Assembly (NCBI GenBank): GCA_030834695.1
Contig: JAUQXK010000101.1
Location: forward strand, 1 to 64,000
Direction of reading: 5' to 3'
Origin: Desulfobacterales bacterium
GTDB lineage: Bacteria; Desulfobacterota; Desulfobacteria; Desulfobacterales; SpSt-501
DNA: 64,000 bases
The position numbers and the translations under genes were made by a program. Of this stretch, positions 994 through 7,961 are shown piece after piece; position 1 is the stretch's first letter; each line of letters opens with the position of its first letter. The notes below the pieces were generated by a model. It did not search any database, was not told the origin of the DNA, and saw nothing but the letters and a program-made list of their open reading frames with translations.

Positions 994-3900
994 TCAACGG
1001 TTTTGGGCCGCCAGCATCCGGTAGAGGATCACGGCAAGGAGAACCAACCAGACGATCAGCCATCCGACCGGGACGGCGGCGTGCGGCTGCAGTGCTTTCT
1101 CGAGATTGAGGCGAAAGGGTGAATCGCCGATTAAAAAGGTCAGGTCCACAGCACCAGCCCTGGTCGCTGACGGCAGTTTCAGCCGGCGGCTGTAAGTACC
1201 GTCCAGGTGGTCGATGGCCGGCTGCGTGAACTCACCGGCCGTTGCTTCCCAGAGAATGAGGTGCTGCCGGCCCGGCCCCAAGAGGTTGCCGTAGTCGTCG
1301 GTCGGGCGCAAGGTGATCTCAAACGTATCAAACCCCTTTTCCCCGGCGGGCAGCCGGATCACGCCGGCATGGACGGCATCGGCCTTCATCGGGATGTGCC
1401 GTTCGAGGCGTTGATTCCGATCGAAGGGGAGCCCTCTCGCGGTTCTGCCCGAAGCGTTGAACTCGAAAGCATAAGTGCCAGCCACCGTCGCCCCCTCGTA
1501 CCGGCCGGTGTAGACCCCGTCTCCCGCTGCCGAATCTCCGTGGGTGCCGTCGTCGTAGAGCCGCACGGTATCCAGAACGGTGCCTCCGGCAAACGGCTGC
1601 TTCCTGAACTCCGTCAGGTATATGATTTTGCGCAACAACGGTGAGAGCGCCTCGCCGTTGCGCGTTTCCGCCACTTGACCGAGTTCCTCCATGCCGACCC
1701 GCGACTCCCCCAGCCAGTTTCCAAGCGCCAGCTGCGGCCGGGCCACGCGGGCCCAGACCGTTGCCGGCAGGGCCGGCGGCCGCCCGTTTTGAGTGAGTTG
1801 GGCCGTCAGGGTGAGGGTCGCGCCGGTGCGGGCCGCCTGCACGGCAACGCTGCCCCTGAGGGCGAGTGCCGAGTCGGTCACCACGCTCCACTGATAGGGC
1901 ACCGCCTTTTTGGAAGGCCCCTCCGGTTCCAAGGCCAGCTCCAGCGACCATGGTTGACCGGAAACCCGGCCGGGCAGGTTCAAGAAGGCTGAATCGATTT
2001 TGACCAGCGCAAAGGTCGGCCCGTCGCGGAAACTGACGCCGGGAAGGGTTTGGCGGAAGGCGACTTCACGGCCGTCGGAGGCCCGGATGACGAGGTCGGG
2101 CCGCTGTTTCAGGGGGCCGGCCCAGCTTACGAACACGGCCACCTTGCGGTCCAGATCCGAGACGAAGAATTCGTGGCGGTTGCGCTCGCCGGGAAGAATC
2201 CGACCGGCCGGGTCGGCGGCGGCTTCCAGCTGCAAAGCATCCACCAGGATCGATTTATAGGCGGCCTGCAACGCCGTGGCCGGATCCCAGGCCAGCGGGT
2301 CGAACCCCGCTGCGGCGGTTACATCGTAATATCCTCCCTGGGTTTGCGCAGCCAGCTGCCCCAGCGCATCGTTTGGGACTTCACCGGCCTGGCCGAAGCC
2401 GATCGCATAGGTCCGGACGGCGTTCGCCGCGAGGGTGTCGATCGCATGATCGATGTCATCGAGATCGGAATCGATCGGGCAATTATGGAACCCGTCGCTC
2501 AAAAGCACGAGCGCTTTGCGGTCTTCGGAGCCGAACATGCCGGCGGCGGTGCCGAGCGCCGCCAGCAGAGGGGTGTTGCCGGCGGCCGTCAATCCGGGGA
2601 TGGTGCTTTCGATCGCGGCTGAGATGGAGTCCTCTCGCACGGGGGCCATCGGGGTGATGACCTCGCCGGCGCAGCCCTGGTAGAGTTGGCGCGGGAACCG
2701 AGCGATCCCGAAGACCGCCCGGCACGGATTGAAAAACTGCAGCATGTCCAGGAACGGTACGGCCGCCTGGCGCGCCAGCGTCAAGCGCTGCTGGGCGGCA
2801 TCCACGCCGGGAACTCCCTCGTGGTTCCAGGTCATGCTGCCGGACGTGTCGAACAGCAGGGCGACGGCGGTGTCGGGCGGTTGGGTGACGGGCGGCGGGA
2901 TCACGGGCACGCCGCCGACCAGGCTGAAGCCGGTGCCGGGTGCCGGGGCCTGATGATGAGCCGCGGTAAAGAGCGCCCTGAAAATCACCTCCGGGTGGTG
3001 AACCGTGTTTTGGTGCCGGGCGAATTTATCGCGGGTCTCCTGACCGATGAGAGGTTCGAGCCAGTCGGGGATGGAGAGGGCGGCCGGCTGGGTGGGAATC
3101 ACGATATCGTCCAGGTTGACGGCATCCGGTGCCAGATTCTTAGCCAGCACCCGTCCCTGGCAATCACCGGACGGGCCGCTGCCCCCGACAAAATCTCCGT
3201 TCTCGGCGGCATAGATGGTCGTATAAAGAACCCCTTGATCCGCTGCGGTTCCATTCGAGCGGCTGCCGGGCGCTTCGCTGGGGTAAAATCCGGGCAGGGA
3301 ATCGCTGTCTTCGATGGGATGGCCGTTGAGGTTCGCGATGTAATTCAAGGTCGCGTCCCCGAACGGAGTGCACAGGGAGCTGTAGCCGTTGTTGAGCTGG
3401 CGTGCCGACGGGTAGCCTGACGACCCGCTCAGCCCCGGCCAGTTGAGACCGTGGTTGGGGGGCGCGATCGCGATGAACTCCGAAACCGGGATCGGTTCTC
3501 CCGCATCGTGGAGCTGCTTCAGATAGCGGCGCGTGCTGATGGTGCCCTTGCTGTAGGCGATGATGGCCAATTTGAGGTCGGGGTTGTTGGGGTCTTTCAG
3601 CCGCTGCCGGGCGCGGATCAGATCCACCGCTTCCTGGATCTGGGCTGCGTCCTCGTCGACAGAGCGCTCATGGTCGGCCTCCGCATCGCCGAAGTGCAGG
3701 TAGTAGGGCTCGATGCCCAGGCAGAGGTTTTCCGGCAGATCCAAGGCGCTCTTGAACGAGGTCAGACCGTCGATGCTGTCGTGGAAATTCTTCCGGTAGT
3801 TGGGATGCTGGGGGTCCGGGCTCGGATCATGGCCGTGCACGAAGAGAACCGCGAGGCGATGGCGGGGCGGTGTCAGATCGCTCTCGATCAGTTCGGTGCC

Positions 3901-4005
3901 GTCGGCCGAAAAAACCGTCACGGCACCCGCCCAAAAGGGAAGTGCCAGGCCGACGGTCAACCCAGCAACCAACATCAACGAAACTCTCCGTGCATGGTTC
4001 GTCAT
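994..4005 (-). CDS. Large exported lipase-like/VWA fusion protein
   Basis: I start at the ATG at 4005, not the upstream one at 4068, because GGAGG lies six bases upstream and the product then begins with a clean signal peptide (MTNHARRVSLMLVAGLTVGL). The protein has 1003 residues. Residues about 45-330 look like an alpha/beta hydrolase: LFVHGHDP, then a nucleophile-elbow-like AYSKGT with Ser152, then APPNHG. Residues about 380-570 form a VWA domain with MIDAS-like DTSGSM at Asp386 and LLSDG around 503-505. The rest is a beta-rich ectodomain ending in a single membrane helix (VPVGWLIVWLVLLAVILY). An envelope role is inferred. Substrate and catalytic activity are unknown. Confidence 0.85.
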   Translation of the reverse strand: MTNHARRVSLMLVAGLTVGLALPFWAGAVTVFSADGTELIESDLTPPRHRLAVLFVHGHDPSPDPQHPNYRKNFHDSIDGLTSFKSALDLPENLCLGIEPYYLHFGDAEADHERSVDEDAAQIQEAVDLIRARQRLKDPNNPDLKLAIIAYSKGTISTRRYLKQLHDAGEPIPVSEFIAIAPPNHGLNWPGLSGSSGYPSARQLNNGYSSLCTPFGDATLNYIANLNGHPIEDSDSLPGFYPSEAPGSRSNGTAADQGVLYTTIYAAENGDFVGGSGPSGDCQGRVLAKNLAPDAVNLDDIVIPTQPAALSIPDWLEPLIGQETRDKFARHQNTVHHPEVIFRALFTAAHHQAPAPGTGFSLVGGVPVIPPPVTQPPDTAVALLFDTSGSMTWNHEGVPGVDAAQQRLTLARQAAVPFLDMLQFFNPCRAVFGIARFPRQLYQGCAGEVITPMAPVREDSISAAIESTIPGLTAAGNTPLLAALGTAAGMFGSEDRKALVLLSDGFHNCPIDSDLDDIDHAIDTLAANAVRTYAIGFGQAGEVPNDALGQLAAQTQGGYYDVTAAAGFDPLAWDPATALQAAYKSILVDALQLEAAADPAGRILPGERNRHEFFVSDLDRKVAVFVSWAGPLKQRPDLVIRASDGREVAFRQTLPGVSFRDGPTFALVKIDSAFLNLPGRVSGQPWSLELALEPEGPSKKAVPYQWSVVTDSALALRGSVAVQAARTGATLTLTAQLTQNGRPPALPATVWARVARPQLALGNWLGESRVGMEELGQVAETRNGEALSPLLRKIIYLTEFRKQPFAGGTVLDTVRLYDDGTHGDSAAGDGVYTGRYEGATVAGTYAFEFNASGRTARGLPFDRNQRLERHIPMKADAVHAGVIRLPAGEKGFDTFEITLRPTDDYGNLLGPGRQHLILWEATAGEFTQPAIDHLDGTYSRRLKLPSATRAGAVDLTFLIGDSPFRLNLEKALQPHAAVPVGWLIVWLVLLAVILYRMLAAQNR

Positions 4006-4321
4006 GGCATGCCTCCGCGGAGGAGTTGTGAATGAAGGCCGAAAAGGATCTCTCGCATTCATAACCAAATTTGACTGAATTTGCTACATTGGGATTGCGC
4101 GCCGGCTGGCGGTCATGGCCGGGTGTTGAAAAAAGGCGTTTCAGGCCGTGGTCCCTATTTAGGACAGCGGCCCGATCAAGGGTGAGGCGGGGTAAAATTT
4201 CAGGGGCTTCAAAGGGCCGCCCCCCATGTCGGCAAAACGGCCGGTCGGGCGGATCATGCGGGGAAAAGCGCTGGGATCGGACGCACGTCGGGCGTTCGGT
4301 CCCAACGCTTTTTTTCGGCCT
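4006..4321. other. Intergenic region between two minus-strand genes
   Basis: No convincing gene is present in this 316-base stretch. It holds a bidirectional hairpin terminator (listed separately) and, at 4066-4083, a short inverted repeat CAAATT-N6-AATTTG that could be part of the promoter region of the minus-strand gene starting at 4005. The repeat is too short to assign. Confidence 0.5.
4267..4315 (-). terminator. Bidirectional Rho-independent terminator
   Basis: The arms AGCGCTGGGA (4267-4276) and TCCCAACGCT (4300-4309) form a ten-pair stem with one G-U pair. The hairpin is followed on the plus strand by a run of seven T and on the minus strand by TTTT. It lies just past the stop codon at 4322 of the minus-strand gene, so ending the GntR operon is its likely role. 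Confidence 0.75.
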
Positions 4322-4729: not shown

Positions 4730-5749
4730 TCAAGGAATCCGAACCGGCTCCGGAGCGCTTTCCCGGCTGTCGCCGCCGGAATTCATCTCCAGCAAGCGCG
4801 ATCGGAGCATGGCGATCCCCGCCTGGTCGATTCGTTTGTTGTCAACGACGAGCTCTTTGTTTTTTGGAACGAGGGTCCGGAGTCGGCTTTCAACCAGGCT
4901 CGAGCAGACAATCACGGACGCTTCGGCGATCATTTTCTCTATGCTGCCCTTCTTTTCAGCGCACCCGGTCATCACCTGCAGGTGCTTCAAACCCGCCCGC
5001 TGGATCGAAAGCTTCATGTTTTCCGACCCCGGCTTCGTGGTGCAGGCAACCCCGACCTTGGTACCATCGGGCAGCGCCGTCAGCCGCATCAGCGTGTCGA
5101 GGCTGGTATCCACCATGAGAGCGACCACTTCCATCCCGGACCCTTCCAGAAGGCTCTGGACCTCCCGAATATGGTAGAAGGTGGTGATGATCAGGCCATA
5201 GCGTTTCAGACTGGCCGGATCTTTTTTGACGGTCTTCTCGAAATCTTCAACCAGAATGGAATCCACCTGGATGGAGAGCTCTTTGGAAAGCTCGGAGCTG
5301 AAGAGATCAAGCTCGGGCCGACTGCATTCGATAAAAAGGGCGCTGACCCGTCGGGCCGGGCTGGTTCGCGAGGGGGCAGCCTGGGTTCGGGCATAAAGCG
5401 TGAGAAACACTTCCTCGGCGCTGAAGCCTAGCCTTTCGGCTTTTTCGAGGGCGTCGTCCACCACTTCCAGCAGCTTGTTCATGTGTTCCACCTTCGTTTT
5501 GGACTTCAGGGGCGTCGACGACACGAAAGTTCCCCGCCCCGGTTCGCAGGAAAGCAGCCCTTCCCGCTGCATGTCCGCAAACACCTTGGCCACCGTGTTC
5601 CGGTTGACCCGCAGAAAGCCGGCCAGCTGCCGTACGGTGGGCAGCTGGGTGCCGGAAGCCAATTGCCCCGACTGAATCAGATAAACCAGCTGTGCCTTGA
5701 GCTGGGTGTGGACGGGGAGCTGATTTTTTCGGTTGAGTTTGAGATCCAT
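4730..5749 (-). CDS. GntR-family transcriptional regulator
   Basis: I chose the ATG at 5749 (MDLKLNRKNQLPVHTQ); the alternative TTG at 5776 falls inside the operator. Residues about 1-80 are a GntR winged helix: LPVHTQLKAQLVYLIQSGQL, LPTVRQLAGFLRVNRNTVAKVF, then the wing EGLLSCEPGRGTFV. The remaining 250 residues are not a clear FCD, UTRA or aminotransferase domain. They have a Rossmann-like feel (LIITTFYHIREVQSLL, KVGVACTTKPGSENM, ASVIVCSSLVESRLR) and may be a periplasmic-binding-like sensor domain. The effector is unknown. A promoter with overlapping inverted repeats lies directly upstream, which implies autoregulation. Confidence 0.88.
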   Translation of the reverse strand: MDLKLNRKNQLPVHTQLKAQLVYLIQSGQLASGTQLPTVRQLAGFLRVNRNTVAKVFADMQREGLLSCEPGRGTFVSSTPLKSKTKVEHMNKLLEVVDDALEKAERLGFSAEEVFLTLYARTQAAPSRTSPARRVSALFIECSRPELDLFSSELSKELSIQVDSILVEDFEKTVKKDPASLKRYGLIITTFYHIREVQSLLEGSGMEVVALMVDTSLDTLMRLTALPDGTKVGVACTTKPGSENMKLSIQRAGLKHLQVMTGCAEKKGSIEKMIAEASVIVCSSLVESRLRTLVPKNKELVVDNKRIDQAGIAMLRSRLLEMNSGGDSRESAPEPVRIP

Positions 5750-5753
5750 CCGT

Positions 5754-5801
5754 ATTGTCCTAATGACATAGGACAATAGGACAATGCGGACGAGATGTCA
5801 A
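5754..5801 (-). promoter_or_regulatory. Autoregulated promoter and operator of the GntR gene
   Basis: Reading the minus strand, a perfect TTGACA -35 box (5801-5796) is separated by 17 bases from TATTGT (5778-5773). Over the -10 box lies the inverted repeat ATTGTCCTA (5754-5762) with TAGGACAAT (5769-5777), and TAGGACAAT is repeated directly at 5777-5785. A further TGTCCTATTG half-site is at 5819-5828. Overlap of promoter and repeats is what is expected for repression by the adjacent GntR protein. Binding itself is inferred. Confidence 0.7.
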
Positions 5802-5978
5802 GATGTCGTTCGAAGCGCTGTCCTATTGCAATCATCCGAACTGAAATTATTGTGGCATATACCCCCAGCCCTGAGGCCGGGCCTGATCGGATCATACGAT
5901 TGAAGACGGGCCTTCATGGGGACAATGTCATTGCTATGGTACCCGACGTTGACACGCGCGAAGAGGAGGTCCATCGCC

Positions 5979-6383
5979 ATGAAAAAATGGGCGATCATCA
6001 TTGCGGTTGCGTTAATGGCGTCCAGCGGCCTGGTGGCAGCCGGGGCGCTCGCTGCCGAGGCGGCGCGCATGGACAAGGATGAACTGCGGGCGAAACTCGG
6101 AGATCTGGATGTGGTGATCATCGACGTGAGATCCCACACGGACTGGCTTTTCAGCGGGGACAAGATCAAGGGCGCCCTGAGGGAAAACTACCGCGACTTC
6201 GAGGGATGGTACGCCAAATACCCCAAGGACAAGACCATCGCCCTGTACTGTGCCTGAAAGAACGAAGGCTCAAGCGCAAGTCTTGCGCTCAAATTCATCG
6301 AGAAGGGCTATCCCGCCGTCTTCGCGCTCAAGGGCGGCTGGGATGAATGGAAGAGAAGCGGGTATCCGATTGAACCCAAGTAG
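5979..6383 (+). CDS. Exported rhodanese-domain selenoprotein (UGA-encoded Sec93)
   Basis: The start ATG follows GAGGAGG by nine bases and encodes a signal peptide (MKKWAIIIAVALMASSGLVAAGALAA). A single rhodanese domain follows: DVVIIDVRS, then TIALYCA, then a TGA codon at 6255-6257. After it the same frame continues for 41 codons with rhodanese sequence (KNEGSSASLALKFIEKGY, then FALKGGWDEW) up to TAG at 6383. The TGA falls where periplasmic rhodaneses have the second Cys of a Cys-x-Cys active site, giving Cys91-Ala-Sec93, and a bSECIS-like hairpin follows. Total length is 134 residues. A thiol/selenol redox or sulfur-transfer role in the periplasm is inferred. Standard gene callers would truncate it at 6257. 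A plain nonsense mutation is the alternative. Confidence 0.82.
6255..6289 (+). promoter_or_regulatory. Candidate bacterial SECIS element
   Basis: Directly after the TGA, AGCGCAA (6273-6279) pairs perfectly with TTGCGCT (6283-6289) around the three-base loop GTC. The loop begins with G, 22 bases after the UGA. The known bSECIS model asks for a small apical loop with G among its first two bases, 16-37 bases downstream of the UGA, and all of these are met. Function depends on SelB, which is not in this window. Confidence 0.72.
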
Positions 6384-6384
6384 C

Positions 6385-7839
6385 TCATGAATTTTGGCGG
6401 GCGGCCTCGAGCCGGACCAGGTACGGCGGATCGATATCGCCGGTCACATACTTCCCGTCGAACATGGAACAATCGAATCCGGTCAAAGCCGGGTTCTCCG
6501 CGGTGACGCTGGCGATCAGATCCTCCAGGGACTGGTAGATCAGGCCATCGGCGCCGACGATCGCTTCCACTTCTCTTTCGCTGCGGGAGGACGCTATCAG
6601 CTCCTTCGACGACGGCATGTCAATGCCGTAAACGTTGGGATAACGCACCGGCGGGGCGGCGGAGGCAAAGTAGACCCTGCGCGCCCCGGCGCGGCGGGCC
6701 ATTCGGATGATTTGCCTCGCGGTCGTCCCGCGCACGATGGAATCATCCACCAGGAGCACATTCTTGCCCCTAAGCTCCATGCTGATGGGGTTAAGCTTCA
6801 TTTTCACGGCGGTTTCACGCGTCGTTTGGCCGCTCATGATGAAGGTGCGCCCGACAAAGCGGTTCTTCATGAATCCTTCATGGTAATCCACTCCCAGTCG
6901 CGAAGCCAACTGCAACGCCGACGTGCGGCTGGTGTCTGGGATGGGGATCACCACTTCGATATCGTGGTCCGGCCGCTCCCTCAGGATTTTGCGGGCCAAA
7001 CGATCGCCCATGCGCGAACGGGCCCGGTAGATCGATACCCCGTTCATGATCGAGTCCGGCCGGGCGAAGTAGACGTACTCGAAAATGCAGGGGGCCATCC
7101 GGGCACTGTCGCTGCAGGCCTGGGCTTTCCAGCTCCCGGCGGCATCAACGAATATCGCCTCCCCCGGGGCGAGGTCGCGAATCAGAGTGAACCCGAGAAC
7201 ATCCAGCGCCGCGCTTTCCGAGGCAATCATATAGTCCGCGCCGGCGGACGAACGGCGTTCGCCGAGCACCGCCGGCCGAATGCCGTGCGGATCGCGGAAC
7301 CCCAGCAGTCCGTAGCCGTTGATCAGGGCCACCACGGCGTACCCGCCGCGACATCGCCGGTGGAGGGCTTGAACCGCTGCGAAGACGTCCCCCGGCTCGG
7401 GCCTCCGCCGGGCGATTTTCTGCAGCTCGTTTGCCAAGACGTTCAACACCACCTCGGAGTCCGAGTCCGTGTTGATGTGGCGCAGATCGGTCTCGAACAA
7501 CTCGCGTTTCAACATTTCGGAGTTGGTCAGGTTTCCGTTGTGGGCGAGTGCGATCCCGTAGGGCGAGTTCACGTAGAACGGCTGGGCTTCCGCCGCCGAT
7601 GAGGACCCCGCCGTGGGGTAGCGCACGTGGCCGATGCCGACATTGCCGGACATTTGCTCCATGTGGCGCGCCTGGAACACGTCGCGCACCAGGCCCCTGG
7701 CTTTTCGCAGACGAAACTTTCCGTTGCGGCACGTGGCCATGCCAGCGGCGTCCTGTCCGCGGTGCTGAAGCACCAGCAAGGCGTTGTAGATATCCTGGCT
7801 GACATCCGTCTGGGAGACGATGCCGACAATGCCGCACAT
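6385..7839 (-). CDS. purF: Amidophosphoribosyltransferase
   Basis: This enzyme makes 5-phosphoribosylamine from PRPP and glutamine, the first committed step of purine synthesis. I start at the ATG at 7839, whose product begins MCGIVGIV. This places the glutaminase nucleophile at Cys2 with no propeptide, and GGAGG lies upstream. The N-terminal Ntn glutaminase domain covers about residues 2-235 ([15 protein letters not shown]). The PRTase domain follows with the PRPP loop [13 protein letters not shown]. The C-terminus [16 protein letters not shown] resembles proteobacterial PurF. At 484 residues the length is normal. It converges on the selenoprotein gene with a one-base gap. A longer start at 7914 is less likely. 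Confidence 0.96.
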
Positions 7840-7961
7840 CGGGGTCCTCCCGCATTTCGGCGCGGTCGAAAAAATCGTGGCGGTATCCGTCCACACAGAT
7901 ACCGCCAGCGCCAAAACAACTCTGATTGTATTGGCGAGTCGGCCTCAGCCTTTCGCCCGAC

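Follow-up and report, generated by a model that had tools for sequence, protein, structure and literature searches.

Within the analysed window, a stretch of 64,000 nucleotides, an ATG at 5979-5981 opens a reading frame whose codon 93 is an in-frame TGA (6255-6257), and 41 further codons lead from there to a TAG at 6381-6383. Under translation table 11 the frame ends at 6257, leaving a truncated product of 92 residues, whereas the read-through product has 134 residues and contains the stretch LYCAUKNEG, in which LYCAU corresponds to residues 89-93. The following features, all on the plus strand, were assigned.

5979..6383, +: predicted rhodanese_LYCAU selenoprotein gene, 134 aa, Sec at residue 93 (NF041203, E 3.6e-48; Pfam; sequence)
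5964..5969, +: AGGAGG, likely Shine-Dalgarno sequence, separated from the ATG by 9 nt (by eye)
5979..6056, +: hydrophobic N-terminus (residues 1-26), probably a signal peptide (cleavage site placed tentatively by eye; helix 2-21 in the structure model)
6249..6251, +: TGT encoding Cys91, presumed to be the canonical catalytic Cys of rhodaneses (follows strand 86-90 of the model; aligned to a Cys of 3tp9)
6255..6257, +: in-frame TGA, predicted Sec93 (TGA in 71 of 73 copies over the family cut-off; Sec machinery present)
6273..6289, +: bSECIS-like hairpin, 7-bp stem, GTC loop at 6280-6282 (complementarity; covariation)
6258..6380, +: 41 codons past the TGA that encode the latter part of the rhodanese domain (Pfam and NF041203 scores; alignment)

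A preliminary description of this DNA had placed 41 rhodanese codons beyond the TGA, and the sequence bears this out: plain annotation would cut the gene at residue 92, and the reading of the recoded gene from raw sequence was correct. The same description put the TGA where a rhodanese would carry a second Cys. The codon does stand two residues after Cys91, but a second Cys at this place is not known to be a general feature of rhodaneses.

The gene is flanked by a divergent GntR-type regulator (4730-5776, minus strand) and a convergent purF (6385-7914, minus strand). The neighbours scanned at the locus, namely these two, a 128-aa frame without a match and a large frame of exported type, were not informative. 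A 1024-aa open frame at 994-4068 (minus strand), with a von Willebrand A match below threshold and a match to a choice-of-anchor X domain, perhaps encodes a large surface or exported protein. In nine of 21 loci (the window and 20 chosen relatives), the rhodanese gene is directly preceded on its own strand by an APC-type permease-like frame (L109, L111, L112, L113, L116, L117, L119, L122 and L123). Scans of three of these frames gave PF13520 in two and no match in the third. The window locus has no such permease, and one relative's permease, searched against the genome, gave no match, a weak result as the search had no positive control. The upstream permease is a possible clue to the substrate of the rhodanese.

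Family membership, fold and probable export

The read-through protein scored 162.4 bits (E 3.6e-48) against NCBIfam NF041203.1, an equivalog model named 'rhodanese_LYCAU, rhodanese-related (seleno)protein' with a cut-off of 115 bits. The match covers profile positions 3-126 of 126 and residues 11-134, part of the N-terminal hydrophobic segment included. The truncated form reached 87 bits, which is under the cut-off. Likewise, the score for the Pfam rhodanese domain (PF00581, gathering score 22.2) rose from 26.2 bits in the truncated form to 54.8 bits in the read-through form. Judged by these profile scores, the window gene is an ordinary member of the already known NF041203 selenoprotein family.

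An AlphaFold2 model, built on 40 of the 79 rows read with L094 and L095 left out, had a mean pLDDT of 91.3. A Foldseek search against the PDB returned many named rhodaneses, including those at ranks 1 to 3. Among the matches are GlpE (1gmx), a persulfide dioxygenase-rhodanese fusion (5ve3) and an NADH-dependent persulfide reductase (4ocg); these share a domain with the window protein, which is not evidence for any one reaction. The catalytic Cys of rhodaneses sits directly after a strand, and in the model Cys91 directly follows strand 86-90 and aligns with a Cys of 3tp9. We thus infer that Cys91 is the canonical catalytic residue; Sec93 belongs to the same loop, two residues further on. When Sec is treated as Cys, the positions invariant in the 40 rows were Y90, C91, position 93, E96, S99, G110, G119, G120, W124 and P130, position 93 being so only because the copies with Thr and Ser were excluded.

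Residues 1-26 have, by eye, the look of a cleavable signal peptide. A simple hydropathy rule found a hydrophobic N-terminal segment in 70 of 75 distinct copies, so that export appears to be a trait of the family and not peculiar to the window copy. The segment is a common trait of the copies and is not stated by the NF041203 model. The five copies without it are L080, which lies near a contig end, L092, L094, L095 and L096. A lipobox-like pattern occurs in six copies, in some perhaps by chance.

Conservation of the TGA codon and the hairpin

Sixty-seven of 389 genomes sampled from the class carry at least one copy over the NF041203 cut-off, and these copies number 73 with the window included. 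The 73 rows are complete, as the sorted list runs on below the cut-off. The 79 copies read comprise the 73, L049 and L050, and four below the cut-off (L095-L098). L049 and L050 were counted as duplicates of copies already among the 73 (the score of L049 equals that of L057, and that of L050 falls in the same range as L067), and L051 was left out. One UAU copy, L071, was missed by the motif pattern, and its motif was read by eye; it is absent from the 78 parsed rows, the 75 distinct copies, the 72 distinct TGA copies and the tree. Copies over the cut-off were found in five of seven genomes of the genus (none in G020 or G113), and those with TGA span many families of the order. In the protein tree (75 rows, 107 columns, many forks open), the window copy groups with L049 and L050 from Desulfobacterales MAGs, L033 from the same genus and L045 from the same order. 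Plasmid records gave 18 distant matches, each spanning less than 80% of the query.

At the position of residue 93, 71 of the 73 copies over the cut-off have TGA, whereas L034 has Cys (LYCAC) and L094 has Thr; L095, below the cut-off, has Ser. Both L094 and L095 keep Cys91 and the rhodanese core. The commonest active-site motif among the copies is CAU, and CTU, CSU and CDU are also present.

These data bear on an alternative in which translation really ends at the TGA and the frame beyond it is a pseudogene remnant or a chance read-through. The frame does end at 6257 under table 11, and the hairpin taken alone is unexceptional, as detailed below. Nevertheless, the downstream part is conserved as rhodanese, and the TGA stands at the same place in nearly all copies. 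Differences also concentrate at third codon positions downstream of the TGA as they do upstream: over all pairs of the 72 copies, the counts at positions 1/2/3 were 21768/17168/36846 downstream and 22298/17154/31846 upstream, and between the window and its four nearest relatives the downstream counts were 1/2/5, 3/4/7, 5/4/11 and 4/1/13. The pseudogene reading was rejected on this conservation, and with a covarying hairpin and a full Sec machinery also standing against it, we consider a genuine stop highly improbable.

The hairpin (AGCGCAA-GTC-TTGCGCT) has arms at 6273-6279 and 6283-6289 that are perfectly complementary over seven pairs. According to a passage of a recent review (PMC13188914), a bSECIS element has its apical loop 16-37 nt past the UGA and a G within the first two positions of that loop. 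The window hairpin agrees with this rule, its GTC loop lying 22 nt past the TGA. The preliminary description had the stem, the loop and the agreement with the rule right, but its figure of 22 bases is the distance to the loop and not to the stem, which begins 15 nt after the TGA.

Taken singly, such a hairpin is not exceptional. When the same 19 codons were recoded synonymously at random 20000 times, a bSECIS-like hairpin of at least 7 bp arose in 3.6% of cases and one of at least 5 bp in 28%, and the folding z-score of the single sequence was only -0.83. Moreover, L034, with Cys at the site, still has a 6-bp hairpin, so that the hairpin alone is no proof of recoding. Thus, the hairpin by itself is weak evidence, and it is the comparative evidence that carries the case. 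Pairs were counted with L034, L094 and L095 left out. In the 72 distinct TGA copies, the five core pairs were all standard in 68, a rule-conforming hairpin of at least 5 bp was found in 70, and the first loop base was G in all 72; hairpins were sought with loops of 3-8 nt, the range given in the review being 3-9 nt (PMC13188914). The fraction of standard pairs over the inner six was 0.94, and it fell to 0.26-0.54 when the partner was slid by 1-3 nt. None of 2000 synonymous within-column codon permutations reached the observed pairing (mean 0.863, sd 0.6%), a significance somewhat overstated as the permutation ignores relatedness. The nearest relative, L049, displays a compensatory change from C-G to T-A in the stem (GTGC/GCAC against GCGC/GCGC in the window). 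Rfam gave no match over the window at the gathering score; this is not telling, because many bSECIS elements are unlike one another and unlike their E. coli counterparts, as the review remarks (PMC13188914).

The genome, an assembly of 149 contigs and 5.65 Mb with completeness 100 and contamination 4.96, was searched for the selenocysteine machinery. We found selA (615 bits), two selB over the cut-off, two tRNA-Sec(UCA) and two selD, so that decoding of UGA as Sec is available to the cell. The preliminary description had held that a genome devoid of selB or selC, or homologues with an unrelated residue at position 93 and lost hairpin pairing, would speak against a selenoprotein. Neither was encountered: selA, selB, selC and selD are all in the genome, the TGA is kept, and the pairing is conserved.

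The two SelB are only 34% identical. One is encoded on contig C54 (L100) and the other on contig C11 (L099), where the frame is cut by the contig end and begins shortly after a tRNA-Sec(UCA); the second tRNA-Sec(UCA) is on C140 (L101). In three other genomes of the genus (G020, G113 and G229), two matches likewise exceed the tRNA-Sec gathering score, some of them narrowly, so that contamination (4.96%) is not the obvious answer. The two selD genes, L103 on C65 and L104 on C5, were over the cut-off with an in-frame TGA in each, and both probably encode Sec-containing selenophosphate synthetases.

As the protein passes the family cut-off, the TGA is conserved in 71 of 73 copies, the hairpin covaries and the Sec machinery is present, we regard it as nearly certain that the gene encodes a selenoprotein with UGA decoded as Sec93. 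The comparison likewise supported the other elements of the preliminary description, i.e., a rhodanese with a CxU site, a bSECIS-type hairpin and probable export.

Putative function of the CxU site

The mechanism we favour can be outlined as follows. The mRNA of an exported, single-domain rhodanese would carry the bSECIS hairpin just past the in-frame UGA, which SelB and tRNA-Sec would decode as selenocysteine. In the modelled domain, Cys91 would occupy the sulfur-accepting position, with Sec93 two residues on in the same loop. Cys91 would take sulfane sulfur from thiosulfate, polysulfide or persulfide in the periplasm of this bacterium of Desulfobacterales type, and Sec93 would then attack Cys91, releasing sulfide and leaving a sulfur-selenium bond between the two residues. 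If a periplasmic thiol reduces this bond, the net role would be that of a persulfide or sulfane-sulfur reductase rather than a plain sulfurtransferase. We give this chemistry about an even chance, and the same holds for the whole statement that an exported NF041203 selenoprotein carries it out with Cys91 and Sec93. Alternatively, Sec93 could serve to tune the persulfide, or it could bind a metal or metalloid.

The copies with two TGA codons are relevant to this question. In 14 of the 73 copies over the cut-off, the presumed catalytic Cys is also replaced by TGA (UAU, UDU or UTU), which would fit a dithiol-like redox pair. The count combines 13 of the 78 parsed rows with L071, all 14 being over the cut-off (L054, L062, L064, L071, L072, L075, L080, L083, L084 and L087-L091). 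On the tree, which holds 13 of these rows, the UxU label has to change seven times, and well-supported branches force at least three of those changes. Cys and Sec thus seem to have replaced each other repeatedly at the catalytic position, and two-Sec sites to have been gained or lost more than once. It is attractive to speculate that the CxU rhodanese reduces persulfides in the periplasm in a selenium-dependent manner, by way of a sulfur-selenium bond, and that the family has repeatedly shifted to a diselenide-type UxU site with two Sec within three residues, possibly served by one hairpin; we put this forward tentatively, as a proposal that is rather more apt to fail than to hold. The term 'UxU' is absent from the main text of PMC13188914, the UxU form does not appear in the passages cited here, and a literature search on 'UxU' with 'rhodanese' gave no joint mention among the matches listed, which is weak evidence of absence.

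If Sec93 is merely a tuner of the Cys91 persulfide, the protein would be a plain but faster thiosulfate:acceptor sulfurtransferase. The rhodanese fold and the conserved position of Cys91 agree with such an enzyme; nevertheless, the Cys at the Sec site in L034 and the TGA at the first position in the 14 copies would suit a redox pair better, and we regard plain sulfurtransfer as unlikely, if a serious contender. A role outside sulfur metabolism, in periplasmic handling of selenium or metalloids (e.g., reduction of Se, Te or As oxyanions), may also be envisaged, since some rhodanese-like families are tied to oxyanion resistance and the protein has a weak match to ChrE (NF033833). The ChrE match, however, reached 27.5 bits, far under the cut-off of 120, placing the protein outside that family, and the neighbours scanned at the locus are those listed above; we consider this role quite improbable. 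What could matter is the biochemistry of the CxU form, and the relatives with CxC, CxU and UxU sites make up a natural series for asking why selenium sits at one or both positions.

Comparison with known rhodaneses

E. coli GlpE (1gmx) and other Cys rhodaneses share the fold of the window protein, but they lack Sec. GlpE is cytoplasmic.

Several rhodanese selenoproteins have been listed. The review passage names, besides the entry discussed below, form 1 (UxxS), form 2 (UxxG), form 4 (UxxG) and TsoB (UxxxxU) (PMC13188914). These combine a rhodanese with Sec as the window protein does; however, the window Sec lies two residues after the presumed catalytic Cys, whereas the UxxS and UxxG motifs suggest Sec at the catalytic position itself. 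COG0607 sulfurtransferase selenoproteins appear in a passage on ocean metagenomes (PMC2398784), and in the text available from PMC1794560 rhodanese is mentioned only in the reference list.

The preliminary description had seen novelty in the exported form and the CxU site. This did not hold up, as reviews list the CxU site, the NF041203 model exists, and the export-type N-terminus is widespread among the copies. A 2022 entry reads 'COG0607 form 2, CxU' (PMC9312934), and a 2026 entry reads 'Rhodanese-like domain-containing protein form 3, NF041203, CxU, 1' (PMC13188914), the '1' being taken as the number of Sec residues; in the passages concerned, both credit Zhang and Gladyshev 2005 (Bioinformatics 21:2580) for the CxU rhodanese. 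The cited review passages give no activity for the CxU form, the search not having been aimed at enzymology. Literature searches for the literal 'LYCAU' gave unrelated matches only, and one for 'periplasmic rhodanese' with 'selenoprotein' gave no match.

An exported CxU rhodanese of identical motif and architecture is thus already known, and the window gene adds one more member to a listed family. The NF041203 rhodanese_LYCAU proteins share with the window protein their length, N-terminal segment, LYCAU motif and Sec position. In the window copy Sec is followed by K (CAUKNEG), in most of the copies read by P; no other difference of note was found.
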